A DNA stretch of 64,000 nucleotides from Flectobacillus major DSM 103 (lineage in GTDB: Bacteria > Bacteroidota > Bacteroidia > Cytophagales > Spirosomataceae), in NCBI RefSeq assembly GCF_000427405.1, contig NZ_ATXY01000004.1:62001-126000 (forward strand), read 5' to 3'. The notes under the pieces are model-generated. The model saw only the letters and a list, made by a program, of their open reading frames with translations. It was not told the DNA's origin and ran no database searches. Both the position numbers and the translations under genes were made by a program. Below, piece by piece: positions 12,599 to 62,202 of the stretch (its first letter is position 1; the number at the start of each line of letters is the position of its first letter).

Positions 12599-13213
12599 CT
12601 AGGCTTCTTTTCTACGACCTCTTTTTTTGGTAAAACCTTGTACTTGTACACCCGCAAAGGCCAAGATTTTATAGAAAGTACGTCGGCTACCAATTTTAAA
12701 GAACTTCATAATCTGTGTAGTCGATTGTTTTTCAGAGTCATAAAGTTCTTTTACAGCAGGTGCTATAGCCTGATAAGCAGGTAAAAGCCCTTTGGGGCGA
12801 CCACCCATTCGGCCTCTGGCACGTGCCGAGGCTAATCCAGCTTTGGTACGTTGTACAATAATATTTCGTTCGTGTTCGGCCAAAGCACAGAAAATCTGAA
12901 AAACAAGAATCCCACTTGGCGAAGTTGTATCAATAGGGTCGTTGAGCGACACAAGATTGATTTTTCGTTTTTCTAATTCAGCCACTAGGTCGATTAAATG
13001 TTTGGTAGAACGGCCGAGTCGGTCAAGTTTCCAAATAACGATAGTATCGCCTTCTCGAAGAAATTTCATCATTTCCTCGAATTCTGGTTTATGAGCTTTC
13101 AAGCCAGAAATTTTATCTGTGTAAATAGACTCACAACCATATTTTTTCAGAGCATCTACTTGTAGGTCTAATGTTTGTTCTTGTGTACTTACACGGGCAT
13201 AGCCAATTTTCAT
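12599..13213 (-). CDS. Serine recombinase, resolvase/invertase family
   Basis: This 204-residue small serine recombinase has the N-terminal motif IGYARVSTQEQTLDLQ with nucleophile Ser9. The resolvase core includes WKLDRLGRSTKHLIDL (active-site Arg region) and FQIFCALAEHERNIIVQRT (E helix). A C-terminal helix-turn-helix (about 160-195) ends in a basic tail, KKRGRRKEA. Length and layout match Hin/Tn3-resolvase-type enzymes. No transposase or obvious invertible segment adjoins it, so it looks like an orphan. Its 5' flank contains three copies of TGGTACAA, which may be its binding sites. Confidence 0.92.
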   Translation of the reverse strand: MKIGYARVSTQEQTLDLQVDALKKYGCESIYTDKISGLKAHKPEFEEMMKFLREGDTIVIWKLDRLGRSTKHLIDLVAELEKRKINLVSLNDPIDTTSPSGILVFQIFCALAEHERNIIVQRTKAGLASARARGRMGGRPKGLLPAYQAIAPAVKELYDSEKQSTTQIMKFFKIGSRRTFYKILAFAGVQVQGFTKKRGRRKEA

Positions 13214-56326: not shown

Positions 56327-57274
56327 CTAGCCCAATGATAGCTCAATCTGCTTGGCTCGATAAACTAATAGATTTTGATAGGCTTTTTTTTGTGGTTCTT
56401 CCAAAAAGCTTATTTGTATCAAGGCCATCATTTGAGGCAATTTTTGTTGAAATTTGATATATATCCTTTCTCTGGATTTTGCTGGAATTTGTAAGGTATC
56501 GGCAAGTTGATCAAAATCTAACCTTTTCAAGCGATTTTTTTTGCCATTAATGGTCAAGGCCATTTCTTCCAAATCTTCGGGAATTGCTAGTTTAGTCGAG
56601 AGTAAGTCGTAGGCAGGAGCTAGCTGTATTTCACTATTGGAGGTTTTCAATAACGAAAAGTTTTTGAGGTGCATATCGGCATTACCCGTTAAAAAGCAAA
56701 AAATACTTAACTCAAAAAAACTCAGTGTATCCAAACCACTATTGGTACTAAATTTTCGGATATGCTTGCCTACTTTTTCCATCGATGCCCTGTATTTATG
56801 TTCGGTAAGGGTTTCGGTCAACTGGCAAAGGTCTTCTACATGAATTTTTTGCCCATTATGTCTGTCAAACCGCTTGGTCAAATAGGCCAATTCGCCCGAA
56901 ACTAGGCGAATTAATGTATGTTCGGCTGCTTTGATACCACAAAGGGTGGCCAATTTCATAGTCAAATCTTCATTTTCGGGTAATTGCTCATAGGCTTCAG
57001 TTGGTGGTTTCAAGATATAATCACCCCAAAGCCCTACAATGGTAAAGCGACTTTGTTGATTGTTGATTTTCTCCAAATTGAGCGAAAGCTTAGGCTGTAC
57101 ACCCGTAACAGCAATGCTTTTGATAATGATTTGCTGTGCCATCTGGCCAAGGTCGGCTTTTCCAAAAGCCAATGTTGGAGGAATACTTGTTCCGAAAAAT
57201 TTCTTTGAACATTTGGGATGAAAATCTTTTTCGCCCTTATTCAAAGGTTCGTAGCAATACAAACATTTATTCAT
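56327..57274 (-). CDS. hipT: HipT-type serine/threonine kinase toxin
   Basis: This 315-residue HipA-like kinase lacks the HipA N-terminal subdomain, which is encoded separately just upstream. The N-terminus has a zinc-knuckle pattern Cys4-Cys7...His19-Cys22. The Gly-rich loop is AVTGVQPKLS (residues 55-64), the catalytic segment is GNADMHLKNFSLL with Asp200 and Asn205, and the metal-binding Asp223 is in APAYDLLST. Kinases of this family inactivate translation-related targets such as aminoacyl-tRNA synthetases. Its start overlaps the hipS stop by 8 bp (ATGAATAA). In the Gly-rich loop the serine positions known from HipA/HipT appear as Ala55 and Thr57, which could alter autophosphorylation; that alignment is by eye. 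Confidence 0.9.
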   Translation of the reverse strand: MNKCLYCYEPLNKGEKDFHPKCSKKFFGTSIPPTLAFGKADLGQMAQQIIIKSIAVTGVQPKLSLNLEKINNQQSRFTIVGLWGDYILKPPTEAYEQLPENEDLTMKLATLCGIKAAEHTLIRLVSGELAYLTKRFDRHNGQKIHVEDLCQLTETLTEHKYRASMEKVGKHIRKFSTNSGLDTLSFFELSIFCFLTGNADMHLKNFSLLKTSNSEIQLAPAYDLLSTKLAIPEDLEEMALTINGKKNRLKRLDFDQLADTLQIPAKSRERIYIKFQQKLPQMMALIQISFLEEPQKKAYQNLLVYRAKQIELSLG

Positions 57275-57602
57275 CGCTATCGGTTTTTAGTGCTTTGATA
57301 CTTACCGCCCCAATGCAGTCGCTACAAACCGACAATAATAATCCCATACGGTCTTTGGGGTTGAGTTTCCAGTTGTCAATAGCAATATTTAATAACCAAC
57401 CTTCGGGAATAAGGCCATCGAAAAAAGGAAATAAAATTTTGCTAAAATACCTTTCATGGCTCAATGGTAATGTTAGTGAAATATCTTGAGGGTGAGGCTG
57501 TTGTAAGTATAAATCGTCGTACTGGAAAGTATAGCCATCTTCGTTTTCCTGAATAATACCAGCCAATATATCCTGATAAAAAACCTGTCCTGCCCTATTC
57601 AT
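57267..57602 (-). CDS. hipS: HipS, separate HipA N-terminal subdomain protein
   Basis: This is a 111-residue protein from the preferred ATG at 57602 (MNRAGQVFYQDILAGIIQEN). An ATG 24 bp earlier is possible but would overlap hipB by 32 bp rather than 8. It matches the HipA N-subdomain 1 (YTFQYDDLYLQQP, ISLTLPLSHERYFSKILFPF, FDGLIPEGWLLNIAIDNWKL). In the E. coli HipBST system this small protein is the antitoxin that neutralises HipT, while HipB augments it. Both overlaps with neighbours are 8 bp, indicating translational coupling. Confidence 0.88.
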   Translation of the reverse strand: MNRAGQVFYQDILAGIIQENEDGYTFQYDDLYLQQPHPQDISLTLPLSHERYFSKILFPFFDGLIPEGWLLNIAIDNWKLNPKDRMGLLLSVCSDCIGAVSIKALKTDSDE

Positions 57603-57801
57603 CGGATACCTCCTTTTTGATAACACCTACTTCACTGCCAAACAAATCTAATACCTGATTTACTTTGTCGAGCCGAAGGGTTCGTTTTCCTTGTTCTAGA
57701 TCACGAATAAAACGCAAGCCTACACCTGCTTTTTCGGCCAAATCAATTTGTGTTAATCCTAAGCGTTTTCTTTTTTCTTTGATAAATGGAGCTATTTTCA
57801 T
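57595..57801 (-). CDS. hipB: HipB, XRE-family DNA-binding antitoxin component
   Basis: This 68-residue protein is nearly all one Cro/C1 helix-turn-helix (IKEKRKRLGLTQIDLAEKAG, VGLRFIRDLEQGKRTLRLDK). It is the first gene of the hipB-hipS-hipT operon. Three near-identical palindromes lie upstream (57807-57905), the first only 5 bp before its start, so it almost certainly represses its own operon. Confidence 0.92.
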   Translation of the reverse strand: MKIAPFIKEKRKRLGLTQIDLAEKAGVGLRFIRDLEQGKRTLRLDKVNQVLDLFGSEVGVIKKEVSDE

Positions 57802-57806
57802 AAAAC

Positions 57807-57905
57807 TATACCCAATAGGGTATATTTATAAACTTATATTTATTTTTATACCTTTTAGGGTATAAAAATAGTAAAACAACTCATATTTATACCCCCAAGG
57901 GTATA
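57807..57905 (-). promoter_or_regulatory. Three HipB operator palindromes
   Basis: Three 18-bp palindromes of form TATACC-N6-GGTATA are present: TATACCCAATAGGGTATA at 57807-57824, TATACCTTTTAGGGTATA at 57847-57864, and TATACCCCCAAGGGTATA at 57888-57905. Centres are 40 and 41 bp apart, close to four helical turns, so bound dimers would lie on one face of the DNA. A TAAGTTTA element on the minus strand between the first and second could be the -7 promoter box. Confidence 0.85.
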
Positions 57906-57967: not shown

Positions 57968-59527
57968 CTATTGTTTATAAGAAGGAACGTGTTTTAGACT
58001 GTCTTTAACACATGTATTTCCTTCAAAACAGCCTTGATTTTCTTTAATCAATACCTGCCAATATACATCTTTTTGTTCTTTGTAATGCTTTGCAATATCT
58101 GTTGGGTTTTTTTGAAAAATAATATCAATAATCTCCTTGGAAGACTTACCTTTTATTTTTTGTTTGCTAATAATGCCCAAATCGTTTTGATTCAATTCTG
58201 AATTGGGTTTAGGATTCAGATTTGGAACCGTAGGTTGAGGTGTTTCAGGAGGTATCTGAGTAGTTTTTTTTACAGCAATTGGTTGTACTTTGTTATCGGT
58301 ATTAAACCAAGTGAAATACACGACTGTACTTATCCATAATATGGTCAATAACGCTGTCAAACGCTTAAATAAGCCTATTTTGCGTTTAAGATTATAATTG
58401 CTGTTGTCGTAGACCACTTCATGACTTTCTGGTTGAGTAGTTGTTGTGGGTTGTAGCGTTTCAATTCGTAATTGTGAGTTTCCTTTCGTTTTTGGGATTT
58501 TATTAGTAAAGCGTGGCTGTTTTACTTCGTTGATACTACTGATAAAAATCTGTTTATTCTCATTGTACAACTTTTGAACATACTCAAGGTTTTGACCAGA
58601 ATTTAGCTTTTTGATATATTCATCGATTTGCTTGGCAAATAGCGAGTAATATTCCTCAATTTTATGAAGGTTGTTTTTGGATTCGTTTAAATTTTGCTCG
58701 TTCTCCAAATGTATTTTTGTATTATTTTCTATTTGAAGCCTTAAATCGTTAACGAGCCTTTTTTTGTCGTTTTCTAATTGTTGTTTTTCATTGCCAAATT
58801 CGGAAATAGAATGCTGAATTTTCTGTTTTCGTTCTTGTTGCTGGGTTTCAATGGCCAAGTCAAAGTCTTTACTTTTAATCCATTGAAATATGCCTCTTTG
58901 GTGTACAAACTCTATGACCTCACTGTTATCGGTAAAATAAATCGTATCGTAAATATTGAGTAGAGTAAGAGAAGATGCAAACAGATAGGGTAGTCTATCT
59001 GTTTTGACGCTGGTATATACAACCAAGTTTTTCCCCGTGAATGTATCGAAATTAATGTCGTCAATAGGTTTTAAAAGCGAAGATACCTTGTCGAAGTCTT
59101 TAGGCTTTGACACCGAAAGGTTATCTGAATGAGTAACAGTAATCGTGTCCTTTATTGTATTTTTGGCAACTATAGTTTCATTGAAGTCATTAATTAGACT
59201 GGTAGTCAAATTTTCTTCTGCTATATCATTGATATACAAAATACTTGAGCCAATAAAAGTTCCGCTTCTATCAGAGTTGGGTTCTTTTGCGTAGTTATAA
59301 ACAGCGTACGAGATAGCACTGATTCCATTGATATTTTCTTTTCTAATGGCATATATTTTGGCCTTAGGCAATAGTTTTATAGCATTAGTATTCAAGTCAA
59401 ATGTTTTAACTCCTTTGGTAATATCTCTGATATTCGTCGAGTTTTTATTGATGTCATAAAAACTTTGTCGAAATCCATTAGGATTTCCAAATGTTCCAAA
59501 TGCTATTAAATATATATTGTTGTTCAT
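57968..59527 (-). CDS. Membrane-anchored coiled-coil protein of the GTPase operon, GAP1-N-like N-terminus
   Basis: This 519-residue protein is not of a family I can name with certainty. The N-terminal globular domain (about 1-215) begins NNIYLIAFGTFGNPNGFRQS and contains YAKEPNSDRSGTFIGSSILY. This pattern resembles the N-terminal domain of GTPase-associated protein 1 in predicted conflict systems, a by-eye judgement. A charged coiled coil (about 225-330) and a Thr/Pro linker follow, then one transmembrane helix (about 389-408, LTALLTILWISTVVYFTWF), a Pro-rich stretch (420-445) and a C-terminal domain with two Cys (CFEGNTC). There is no signal peptide, so the N-terminal domain and coiled coil should be cytoplasmic. 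Its start overlaps the GTPase stop by 4 bp (ATGA), so the two are translationally coupled. Confidence 0.75.
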   Translation of the reverse strand: MNNNIYLIAFGTFGNPNGFRQSFYDINKNSTNIRDITKGVKTFDLNTNAIKLLPKAKIYAIRKENINGISAISYAVYNYAKEPNSDRSGTFIGSSILYINDIAEENLTTSLINDFNETIVAKNTIKDTITVTHSDNLSVSKPKDFDKVSSLLKPIDDINFDTFTGKNLVVYTSVKTDRLPYLFASSLTLLNIYDTIYFTDNSEVIEFVHQRGIFQWIKSKDFDLAIETQQQERKQKIQHSISEFGNEKQQLENDKKRLVNDLRLQIENNTKIHLENEQNLNESKNNLHKIEEYYSLFAKQIDEYIKKLNSGQNLEYVQKLYNENKQIFISSINEVKQPRFTNKIPKTKGNSQLRIETLQPTTTTQPESHEVVYDNSNYNLKRKIGLFKRLTALLTILWISTVVYFTWFNTDNKVQPIAVKKTTQIPPETPQPTVPNLNPKPNSELNQNDLGIISKQKIKGKSSKEIIDIIFQKNPTDIAKHYKEQKDVYWQVLIKENQGCFEGNTCVKDSLKHVPSYKQ

Positions 59528-60459
59528 GAATTTTTTATGCTGAATTTAATTCGTTCCCAAAATGTTCCTTCATAATCTAAATCATAACCTACAATACTTC
59601 TATAGAGCCATTTAGACAATACCTCGGCAGTAGCTAGGCTCAAAATTTTGATTCTTTCTTCGCCATTGATACTTGTCAATTCTCCAATAGTATAAAACGA
59701 TTTACTAAATTCGTAGGTATCTATAGCTTTATTGGTAATTGGTAAGTTATCAGCTATAAATTCATCTAGTTCGTTGGTATGAGCCACCTCCAATTTACCC
59801 GATTTATCCCATTTAGAAATCACTAAAATAATGTTGATAGATTGTAGTGTTTTTTCTTTTTTGTGAAGTTCATTCAAAAACTCATAGATAAAAGTGTCCT
59901 CTTTGTGGGCATTGTCACGGCTTGTCACAATAATAATAGTCAAAGGGATTTTGGCACTTAAATAAGTATCTATACTGCTATGGAATTTGCCACCTCTTCT
60001 GATTTCATAATTATTATCGCCAGCCGTTTCAAGAAATGTCAAATTGATTGGCGGAACTTTTTTAGATTTATTATTAGGTTCAAAAATAAAATCTAACCTT
60101 GTTACTTGGTCTTTGGTGGTTCTATTAGGAAAAATCCCTTTTCTAATATTATCAAAAAAATCTGATAACAATATCATGGCATCTCTTGAATTGGGGGTAC
60201 TTAGGTTGGGTCGTAAAACACCTGCCTGAGAGTTCAAGAAATATAACATTGAAGACAATATGACAGACTTGCCAGAGGATGCACTCCCAAAAAATAAAAC
60301 AAAGTTGCTGTCTTTATTTTTTAATTCATTAGAATTAGGTTTTGCTAAGGGTACAAAATCGGTGTTGTCTTGTTGTTTAGTATCAAAATTCAATGGTTTT
60401 AATGTATCGTCAGCCTCATCAAATGACAATGGCTTGAGTTCTTCGTTATCGTTGCTCAT
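59524..60459 (-). CDS. Atypical P-loop GTPase of a three-gene system
   Basis: This 311-residue protein has an N-terminal tail carrying a repeated LKPL(S/N)FD motif (residues 8-14 and 20-26). A Walker A motif GSASSGKS is at 58-65 (FVLFFGSASSGKSVILSSML). The switch-II/G3 position reads LETAGDN (143-149), with Glu where Asp is usual. The G4 position reads ISKWDK (214-219), in place of NKxD. The overall layout fits a TRAFAC-type GTPase related to the double-GTPase or GTPase-associated conflict families. No membrane segment is seen. It lies between two membrane proteins, 11 bp after the stop of the 344-residue gene and overlapping the 519-residue gene by 4 bp. Confidence 0.78.
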   Translation of the reverse strand: MSNDNEELKPLSFDEADDTLKPLNFDTKQQDNTDFVPLAKPNSNELKNKDSNFVLFFGSASSGKSVILSSMLYFLNSQAGVLRPNLSTPNSRDAMILLSDFFDNIRKGIFPNRTTKDQVTRLDFIFEPNNKSKKVPPINLTFLETAGDNNYEIRRGGKFHSSIDTYLSAKIPLTIIIVTSRDNAHKEDTFIYEFLNELHKKEKTLQSINIILVISKWDKSGKLEVAHTNELDEFIADNLPITNKAIDTYEFSKSFYTIGELTSINGEERIKILSLATAEVLSKWLYRSIVGYDLDYEGTFWERIKFSIKNS

Positions 60460-60470
60460 ACTCGAAAATA

Positions 60471-61505
60471 TTAATTGTTGGGAATAAATGTTTTACCTTT
60501 TCTTTTGCCAAGCCCTCCTTGATGATGATTACTGTTTTCAGAAGAAGTAATCAAAAGAATAATGATAACGATTACAAAGTCAAGTAAAATACAACCTAAA
60601 AAAACCACAAATTGATACATTCCAAAGTTGGTAATGGCATGATTAAAGGCATAACCGATTTTGCCGACTTCTTGGGTTTTTGATATAACAGGCTCAAACT
60701 TTAGTTTTTCTGCTCCTAAAATAGCATTAGCTCGATTGCCTAATTTATTGTATTCGGTCAAGGATTTATCTATTTGGCCCTGAGCAGTACTATTGATTTC
60801 ATTTTCGGGTAGTAATAAAGTATTTTGAATATCGGTATTCCATTTTACTGAAGCATTGTGAATATCGGTCATGATATTTTTTTCCTCTGGGGTCAAGTTA
60901 TAGACCATTTCTATAATTTGTTGTTCCATACGGTTGGCCAAGTCCTCGTACCCACTTGGGTTATTACTAATGGGCGTTAATGGTGTGATTTTTTTACCCA
61001 GAAGTTGTTCTATTCTGCTAATAATCTGTTTTGCTTCAGCTCCTATTCCTTTATTTTTGGGGTCGGTTATTTGAATCTTCAAAAGATTTATTTCACTGCG
61101 GATAGCCTGTCTGGTTTTGGCATCGGCCACAGAGTAATTTAGGTTAGACTCGACCGCCGTTTCTAGGTTATTGAATTTTTCGTTAATGCTTCTTAACTCC
61201 GTTGTATATATGTCGGTTTTCATAAACCTAGTATATAGGGCATTAAAGTTGGCTATAAAGCAAAAAGAGGCTATAAAAATATAAATACCTATAAGGCTTG
61301 TTGTTGATTTTCCTTCAAGCTTTGCGTTTCTGATAACCCACAACAAGAATAATAACAGAAGAGAAAGCACCAGTGCTATTACAAATGAGGCAGAGCCAAA
61401 AATCTGCTCTAAGCCTAGCCAAGTTTGGTAAAAACTTACACTGATTAAAAGCAAGGCCAATACTGCTAGGAAGAGGTCTGTCGGTGTGATTTGTTTATTC
61501 ATCAA
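60471..61505 (-). CDS. Polytopic membrane protein with large helical domain, GTPase operon
   Basis: This 344-residue protein has three hydrophobic helices near 10-30, 36-58 and 68-88. A long helical, partly coiled-coil region follows (about 95-295, ELRSINEKFNNLETAVESNL, AKQIISRIEQLLGKKI). A fourth transmembrane helix lies near 297-320 (FVVFLGCILLDFVIVIIILL), with a short basic tail (GKRKGKTFIPNN). No family is recognised. It is the first gene of the operon, 11 bp before the GTPase. The topology puts the helical domain on one side of the membrane, so it may sense or scaffold for the GTPase. Confidence 0.75.
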   Translation of the reverse strand: MMNKQITPTDLFLAVLALLLISVSFYQTWLGLEQIFGSASFVIALVLSLLLLFLLWVIRNAKLEGKSTTSLIGIYIFIASFCFIANFNALYTRFMKTDIYTTELRSINEKFNNLETAVESNLNYSVADAKTRQAIRSEINLLKIQITDPKNKGIGAEAKQIISRIEQLLGKKITPLTPISNNPSGYEDLANRMEQQIIEMVYNLTPEEKNIMTDIHNASVKWNTDIQNTLLLPENEINSTAQGQIDKSLTEYNKLGNRANAILGAEKLKFEPVISKTQEVGKIGYAFNHAITNFGMYQFVVFLGCILLDFVIVIIILLITSSENSNHHQGGLGKRKGKTFIPNN

Positions 61506-62202
61506 TTTTTTATTTTAATTTATTAATTCACTTCGGGATTGATTTTTTGTTCTAAATAATTTTAAGGAGTCTTTTTGAATGATATATAGCTGTATTTTTT
61601 ATAAAATACAGCTTTGAGCTTAGGTAAATGTACATGAAAAAGTAGTATAAGAAAAGGGCTTTTCTTAGTTTTTTATAATGTTCAAATACAATCATTTAAT
61701 ATCTAAAACTACTATAGATGCCGAACGTATTAGTTTGGATTATTATTGCTGAAAATGACTATACGCTTCATAAATACTTTTCAGAGATATATTTGGTGAA
61801 TAAAATGGTAGAGAAGCCTTCTTGATAATACATGCTGAATTGCTCTTAGTATGGGTGTAAACCCATGAAATATGTCTAAGAAAACAAGGTGATGATATCC
61901 TGTAGATTTTATTTATGTTACAATTCCTGTATTTATTGTGTTAATTCCAATAAAATACAATATTGTTTATATTTATTCTAAATAACTTGCGTCAAGTCTC
62001 TAATTTTTAATATACATTTGTGTTATTATTTAAAACAAGTCTAAATAAATATAACGACAGTCAGATAGTTAAACGACTACCTAACTAATCCAAGGAAAAT
62101 ACCCTTATATATTTCTACATCTGGTATCCATTGATACAATCAATGGGGTGGAATCACTTTCACTTTTGAAAAAACAGTTAGTATTTTAAACTAAACAATC
62201 AG
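61506..62202 (+). promoter_or_regulatory. Promoter region of the TonB-dependent receptor with candidate iron box
   Basis: This 697-bp AT-rich region contains no ORF. A -7-like TACATTTG is at 62013-62020, with a TTG-type upstream element at 61987-61989 (23-nt spacing, slightly long). The word TCTAAATAA occurs at 61977-61985 and 62040-62048, 63 bp apart. The second forms a 9-bp near-palindrome with TTATTTAAA (62026-62034) over the expected transcription start. TCTAAAT half-sites are typical of Fur-type boxes in Bacteroidota, so iron control is suggested. The left part holds the GTPase operon promoter on the other strand. Confidence 0.5.

Follow-up and report, generated by a model that had tools for sequence, protein, structure and literature searches.

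A three-gene cassette of a DO-GTPase-like protein and two membrane proteins that is related to, yet clearly distinct from, predicted bacterial conflict systems

The stretch of DNA analyzed here (hereafter the window) comprises 64,000 nucleotides of contig NZ_ATXY01000004.1 of Flectobacillus major DSM 103 (positions 62,001 to 126,000 of the forward strand), from a genome of 6.2 Mb in the phylum Bacteroidota. On its minus strand it carries three tightly packed genes that encode a membrane protein with four transmembrane (TM) helices (gene 1), a P-loop GTPase (gene 2) and a coiled-coil protein with one TM helix (gene 3). We report that these genes form a conserved unit, which appears to encode a GTP-driven switch between two membrane proteins and is related to, yet clearly distinct from, a family of conflict systems predicted in bacteria. 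A first-pass annotation, made from the letters of the window, had described the locus as a candidate undescribed conflict system. The layout and the product types it gave are confirmed by the coordinates of the open reading frames (ORFs), which leave a gap of 11 bp between genes 1 and 2 (60460-60470) and a 4-bp ATGA overlap between genes 2 and 3 (59524-59527), as well as by hydropathy and by AlphaFold2 models. The word "undescribed" also stands as far as the literature searched is concerned, since no published description of the cassette was found in it, subscription papers lying mostly outside its reach.

Conservation and spread of the cassette

When each species was represented by one genome, a scan revealed 61 loci with a relative of the GTPase. 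In 60 of these all three genes share one strand and keep their order, while in the single exception the contig ends first. The three-gene order, whose conservation among homologs the first-pass annotation had put forward for survey, is thus general. Two of the 60 ordered loci, both from Niabella (L091 and L096), contain several broken frames. For the analyses of gaps, genomic context and add-on genes, 73 loci were gathered and 13 were left out (six same-genome duplicates, two with broken frames, four at contig ends and one found as a GTPase-only match of a hidden Markov model, HMM), which leaves 60; the trees were calculated for 34 representatives with GTPase identity under 88%. In these representatives the two intergenic gaps range from -50 to 144 bp and from -34 to 12 bp, most of them being a few bases or overlaps.

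In the pairs that allowed a calculation, all three genes are under purifying selection, strongest on gene 1 and weakest on gene 3. Over eight pairs, wherever it was computable, the ratio of nonsynonymous to synonymous substitution rates (dN/dS) was 0.01-0.05 for gene 1, 0.02-0.08 for the GTPase and 0.07-0.28 for gene 3, all rough values, as dS exceeds 1 in many pairs. Protein distances are correlated by the Mantel test for the GTPase and gene 3 (rho 0.51) and for the GTPase and gene 1 (rho 0.39), with 0 of 2000 permutations as high in either case, and for gene 3 and gene 1 the correlation is 0.19 (45 of 2000 permutations as high). The three genes are a real unit.

The unit is distributed patchily. 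Among 99 relatives of F. major, its own genome counted, the cassette GTPase is found in four, i.e. in four of the five genomes of the genus Flectobacillus and in none of the 94 others; searches with gene 3 and gene 1 retrieved four of 59 relatives each, and across the phylum the cassette is present in just nine of 395 genomes, again with its own genome counted, a figure far from that of a universally conserved core locus. The species scan also detected it in a small number of related genera, Emticicia and Dyadobacter among them. In the class of the divergent member G313, 391 genomes contained only G313 itself and three marginal matches, and collections of plasmids, phages and viral contigs contained no match to the GTPase. 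The window GTPase exhibits 70% identity to its homolog from a Chitinophagaceae bacterium versus 63% to those of its own genus. In a concatenated tree (obtained by a quick method, with support from the Shimodaira-Hasegawa-like approximate likelihood ratio test, SH-aLRT) the window copy and those of congeners are placed in separate groups with strong support, and the approximately unbiased (AU) test rejects a tree in which they are united (p = 9.7e-5). The 60 loci fall into 28 context groups, in which loci are linked by two common flanking gene clusters; this is an upper figure, as short contigs form groups of their own. The congener copies are located at other chromosomal places, and the genes that flank the window copy have relatives in congeners without the cassette; a clean empty insertion site was not demonstrable among these relatives, which lie on different contigs or next to other neighbors. 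Taken together, the comparisons of genomes show the cassette to be accessory and transferred between lineages, in agreement with the accessory-island reading of the first-pass annotation.

The GTPase and its two membrane partners

To judge from its sequence, the cassette GTPase is distantly related to the DO-GTPases, a kinship that had been suspected from the window alone. The window protein itself scores 17.6 bits against the Pfam family DO-GTPase1, under the cut-off of 27. However, this family is matched by 32 of 35 GTPase homologs at E<=0.1 (the best at 1.4e-8), and the cut-off is exceeded by the homologs in G302, G313 and, only if neighboring pieces are added, G172, all of which are divergent. 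Comparison of the GTPase family with a DO-GTPase1 profile by hhalign gave a probability of 97.1% (E 7.6e-11) over 186 columns, with the P-loop, ETSGE and SKWD/SCWD aligned, and with the second DO-GTPase type 88.7%; the DO-GTPases used for comparison came from one plasmid of Bradyrhizobium and from two genomes belonging to the phylum. Because proteins of the true DO-GTPase1 and DO-GTPase2 types score about 30 bits against each other's model, the cassette family may represent a third DO-GTPase branch that lies about as far away or somewhat farther.

Glutamate is found at position 144 in 34 of 35 homologs, and we read it as the putative Walker B glutamate of the DO-GTPase paper; the G4 motif is SxWD in 34 of 35 and TKWD in one. 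The first-pass annotation had called the G3 and G4 motifs non-standard, and they are indeed present as it described, yet they are usual for DO-GTPases, with whose DxxGE and SCWD they align. One homolog matches the Pfam family Gtr1_RagA (0.0014), and the best Foldseek match of the GTPase model is a Rag-like GTPase of Lokiarchaeota (8yl2, E 1.1e-5, TM-scores under 0.4), among further matches to many Ras-type and other GTPases, including MglA. No housekeeping GTPase family, the identity that the annotation had considered as the opposite outcome, scores over its cut-off for the window protein. There is no second GTPase in the operon, and the whole genome contains one match at E<=0.001. The N-terminal tail of the window GTPase has no cysteines and hence no zinc ribbon, a feature that is not universal in DO-GTPases. 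A simple Kyte-Doolittle hydropathy scan, a crude method used here for all membrane segments, revealed no segment in the window GTPase and none in 32 of the 34 representatives.

This N-terminal tail is probably disordered, according to its AlphaFold2 model, and contains short repeated motifs. Between one and four copies of PL[SNTAL][FILS] are found in the tails of 46 of 60 homologs, and among the 34 representatives the motif occurs 23 times per 1000 residues in GTPase tails, 3.4 times in the rest of the GTPase, 0.2 times in gene 3, 0.1 times in gene 1 and 0.4 times in neighboring proteins. In two loci in-frame tandem arrays of PLSFD motifs are visible in the DNA (L034:9237-9395 and L033:4922-5056), with units of 45 and 48 bp (3.5 and 2.8 copies). 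The tail may thus be a docking array of varying copy number.

Gene 1 is the most conserved of the three, with a mean column identity of 56% in the alignment of 34 sequences. Its product gave five hydropathy matches, of which two overlap, i.e. four TM segments at about residues 6-24, 40-58, 69-87 and 301-319 (3 to 7 matches among the representatives); segments 3 and 4 are separated by a helical domain some 200 residues long. Because of the charges of the short loops, the helical domain is probably periplasmic and the short basic C-terminal tail (KRKGKTFIPNN) cytoplasmic. The tail is conserved, with IPN within the final eight residues in 16 of 34 representatives. Similarity to DUF4199 was found for 22 of the 34 members (the best at 1.4e-5; residues 16-133 in the window protein, mainly TM helices), and is taken as presumably compositional. 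Neither gene 1 nor gene 3 of the window matches the Pfam families GASH or FNIII, and these are not among the 25 commonest families listed for the homologs.

The model of the 519-residue product of gene 3 (mean predicted local distance difference test score, pLDDT, 84; predicted template modelling score, pTM, 0.56) has helices at residues 219-309, 314-334 and 377-411, a globular N-terminus and a small C-terminus that is also helical. The single TM helix, at residues 390-408, is preceded by basic residues; over the representatives the scan was uneven, with 0 to 3 matches and one in 25 of the 34. The longin fold is characterized by the order b-b-a-b-b-b-a of strands and helices. Secondary structure assigned to the model by DSSP follows this order in residues 1-123, with the conserved motifs FGNPNGF and R-x-G-x-F-x-G, and continues into a small b-a-b-a-b element. 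No Pfam family fits the window protein, and the homologs gave scattered matches, mostly to coiled coils, among the families listed; likewise, searches of PDB sequences with the cassette proteins gave coiled-coil, P-loop or otherwise marginal matches, and no Rag-regulator chain for gene 3. The C-terminus beyond the TM helix is probably periplasmic. It is variable, with a total protein length of about 410 residues in one group and about 520 in another, and in L032 and L034 gene 3 ends with a different domain.

Table 1. Features of the cassette, its neighbor in the window, and retropepsin-like genes at other loci
Feature	Position	Strand	Details and basis
Gene 1	60471-61505	-	344 aa; TTG start (60471..61502 from ATG at 61502); ORF list
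Gene 1, TM helices 1-3	61434-61490, 61332-61388, 61245-61301 (span 61245..61490)	-	Kyte-Doolittle scan
Gene 1, TM helix 4	60549..60605	-	Kyte-Doolittle scan
Gene 2, DO-GTPase-like / Rag-like P-loop GTPase	59524-60459	-	311 aa; ORF list
GTPase N-terminal tail with LKPLSFD, LKPLNFD and FVPLA repeats	60343..60438	-	pLDDT <50 for residues 1-44
G1 / P-loop GSASSGKS	60265..60288	-	residues 58-65; sequence motif
G3 ETAGD	60016..60030	-	LETAGD at residues 143-148; family consensus ETSGE; sequence motif
G4 SKWD, DO-GTPase type	59806..59817	-	residues 215-218; sequence motif, profile alignment
Gene 3	57968-59527	-	519 aa; ORF list
Gene 3, putative longin-like domain	59159..59527	-	AlphaFold2 secondary structure
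Gene 3, coiled coil	58526..58873	-	first two AlphaFold2 helices
Gene 3, TM helix	58304..58360	-	Kyte-Doolittle scan
HipBST-type toxin-antitoxin operon	56327-57801	-	Pfam HTH_3, Couple_hipA and HipA_C on three genes
Retropepsin-like, lipoprotein-like genes	L082:10522-11097, L089:4151-4711, L064:10523-11083 and 7 more		directly after cassette

Add-on and neighboring genes

In 10 of the 60 loci the gene next after the cassette, overlapping it or within 10 bp, encodes a retropepsin-like protein (Pfam gag-asp_proteas, 2.7e-15 for the one gene tested and 4.2e-14 for a gene in L036). In nine loci a SNase-like gene (Pfam SNase, two tested) is found downstream, 129 to 1469 bp from gene 3, and in L064, L074 and L089 there is direct overlap between it and the gene for the protease. 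The sequence C-x-HPE after a lipobox-like stretch is present in all ten protease genes, whose products look lipoprotein-like by eye, and in two of the nine SNase genes; in L064 and L089 the leader motif C-x-HPES is common to the protease and the SNase-like gene that follows it. The window copy belongs to a branch of 13 representatives, eight of which have the protease while the window copy has none, and as the protease label needs six changes on the tree, the add-on would have been gained and lost repeatedly. A very divergent five-gene version (L036:662-5293) encodes a multi-TM protein, a GTPase, a gene 3-like protein, a DUF805 protein and a retropepsin-like protein.

Next to the window cassette lies an operon of the HipBST type. 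The first-pass annotation had identified it correctly and had taken it as strengthening the island reading. A HipA-type kinase is found near the cassette in only two of 60 loci, the window and L089. Several imperfect TATACCC...GGGTATA palindromes upstream of HipBST (about 57800-57900, noticed by eye) are perhaps operators. Scans of 131 of the 244 neighbor clusters, read from the 25 commonest families listed, gave Pfam matches to GmrSD_N (5), Fic (3) and HSDR_N (2), and PADLOC matches to 133 families, the 25 listed being led by mad2, Orf5, HEC-06 and SspE; all these counts come without a background rate. At single loci, two GmrSD_N genes lie directly upstream of the cassette (L060:2521-6843) and a gene for an RHS-repeat protein just upstream of it (L033:169-3792). 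In the window a gene with a serine recombinase-like sequence (12599-13213, minus strand) is located about 45 kb from the cassette.

Possible function of the cassette

We propose, with the chances about evenly balanced for and against, that the cassette is a membrane-tethered GTPase switch between cytoplasm and periplasm. Gene 1, with its four TM helices, periplasmic helical domain and cytoplasmic tail, would be the sensor or scaffold, while the GTPase, which has no TM helix of its own, would be kept at the inner membrane by its partners, probably through the LKPLSFD-like motifs of its tail. The cytoplasmic longin-like domain of gene 3 would bind the GTPase as a regulator or effector, and gene 3 would oligomerize by its coiled coil and pass its state over the single TM helix to the fast-evolving periplasmic end. 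In one branch the retropepsin-like lipoprotein protease, sometimes together with the SNase-like nuclease, could be the periplasmic output or could control it. The topology, the contacts and the direction of signaling are inferred, and the stimulus, envelope damage or infection, is our guess.

Several observations weigh against this proposal. The longin assignment is weak, because no Foldseek match of the full-length gene 3 model reaches E 0.001 (the best, TagF, has 0.11 and a probability of 0.18) and because the other top matches are mostly unrelated proteins such as aminotransferases and fluorescent proteins. The tail motif is absent from 14 of 60 GTPases. In 50 of 60 loci, among them the window, no protease gene was seen next to the cassette, although some contigs end there; a search of the window genome and four congeners, made with no positive control, did not find one either.

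The first 15 Foldseek matches of gene 3 nevertheless include one chain each of the complexes FLCN-FNIP2-Rag-Ragulator (0.14) and SEAC-EGOC (0.56), of unspecified subunits, and FNIP1/2, Npr2 and Npr3 are described as longin/DENN proteins in PMC3521125. With a Rag-like GTPase as partner, the identity of gene 3 as a longin protein of the Rag-regulator type is suggested but not proved. In a bolder and distinctly unlikely version, a mobile transmembrane G-protein circuit would consist of a bacterial Rag-like GTPase, a multi-helix receptor and a longin-DENN-like regulator anchored in the membrane; with a repeat-tunable docking tail and periplasmic readout by exchangeable effectors such as the retropepsin-like protease, it would correspond in bacteria to the Rag / FLCN-FNIP / Npr switch. 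The likeness to Rag GTPases and their FLCN-FNIP and Npr2-Npr3 longin-DENN regulators (PMC3521125) lies in the best structural match of the GTPase; for gene 3 it consists of weak, not significant, structural matches to chains of such complexes, and gene 3 differs in having no sequence match to such PDB chains.

The closest known comparison is with the DO-GTPase/GAP1 systems, predicted GTPase-centric conflict systems (Kaur et al. 2020, PMC7159879). The cassette shares with them a homologous GTPase with the SxWD G4 motif and the conserved glutamate of the G3 region, a compact operon with a partner downstream of the GTPase, and membrane association, which is common there. It differs in having one GTPase, no zinc ribbon and no recognizable GAP1-N/M, GASH or FNIII domain, and two conserved membrane proteins instead; in that paper a paralogous second GTPase is given for 38% of systems and a zinc ribbon for 60% of DO-GTPases, and a word search of its main text returned no "retropepsin", "aspartyl", "SNase" or "longin". 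True operons of the GAP1-N1 type exist in the same phylum (L110:5497-11685 and L111:244-6464), both with GAP1-N1 and DO-GTPase1, and the former also with GASH and DO-GTPase2.

In a rival reading the cassette is itself an anti-phage or conflict system of the DO-GTPase type, in which the GTPase would be flipped by an infection or an attack on the envelope, and cell death or arrest would be brought about by the membrane proteins or by the periplasmic protease or nuclease. The kinship of the GTPase, the patchy spread by horizontal transfer, the variable C-terminus of gene 3 with the changing add-on genes, and the GmrSD_N, Fic and HSDR_N neighbors together with the adjoining HipBST operon all point this way. 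We nonetheless consider it somewhat unlikely, as PADLOC contains no match for the three window proteins (the best E, 0.017, falls on the P-loop) and the GTPase is unmatched in the mobile-element and viral collections, the defence-gene counts among the neighbor families listed lack a background rate, the most conserved component is a membrane protein, unlike a fast-evolving effector, and the window copy has no effector enzyme. The defence function proposed by the first-pass annotation is a fair guess that these results do not establish.

Quite improbable, in our opinion, is an accessory cell-surface or polarity regulator like MglA/MglB, acting in envelope assembly, gliding or secretion. The structural matches to MglA and Rag-like proteins, the membrane partners and the blank mobile-element collections would fit it, and the cassette resembles the MglA-MglB switch in pairing a small GTPase with a partner predicted to be of the longin/roadblock class; however, this partner is membrane-anchored, has a coiled coil and shows no roadblock domain. 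The cassette, though present in a few related genera, is absent from all 94 relatives searched outside the genus and so is not needed for shared motility or secretion, and no motility gene was found among the recurrent neighbors listed (45 of the 64 clusters with >=3 loci).

Nor do we give much credence to gene 3 as a divergent GAP1, and thus to the cassette as a reduced DO-GTPase/GAP1 system. In an hhalign comparison with 14 GAP1-N1 sequences the R-x-G hairpin of gene 3 does align with theirs, the patterns Y-x12-R-x-G and G-x3-G-[FH] occur in both at equal spacing (by eye, kept as a lead only), and gene 3 proteins score above length-matched ORFs on the GAP1-N1 HMM (60 related proteins versus 161 ORFs, Mann-Whitney p 7e-20), which ranks them 3rd, 12th and 13th of 2507 ORFs with E of about 1 to 3 (a duplicate copy is 4th). 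The hhalign probability is, however, 0.1% (E 0.4), and in an even-handed repeat with this HMM, real N-termini outscored their own shuffles in no more than 3629 of 6800 comparisons (552 were ties), 27 of 34 N-termini being reported, with means of -1.1 bits versus -1.4 for the shuffled ones. For the window protein no GAP1 model gave a match at E up to 1, against scores of 99-120 bits for true GAP1-N1 proteins, no GAP1-M was detected in nine genomes including that of the window, and a coiled coil and TM helix stand where GAP1-M/C would be. The GAP1-N check suggested by the first-pass annotation thus came out negative.

If the cassette is a membrane-tethered GTPase switch, it would join a small group, since to our knowledge signaling across the inner membrane is documented for few bacterial GTPase circuits. 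As a compact mobile unit of one GTPase and two conserved membrane partners it is simple to rebuild and test, and it would tell whether proteins of the DO-GTPase type can do without GAP1 when acting at the membrane. Should the longin-like domain prove real, the cassette would also bear on the pre-eukaryotic origin of GTPase-longin pairs.

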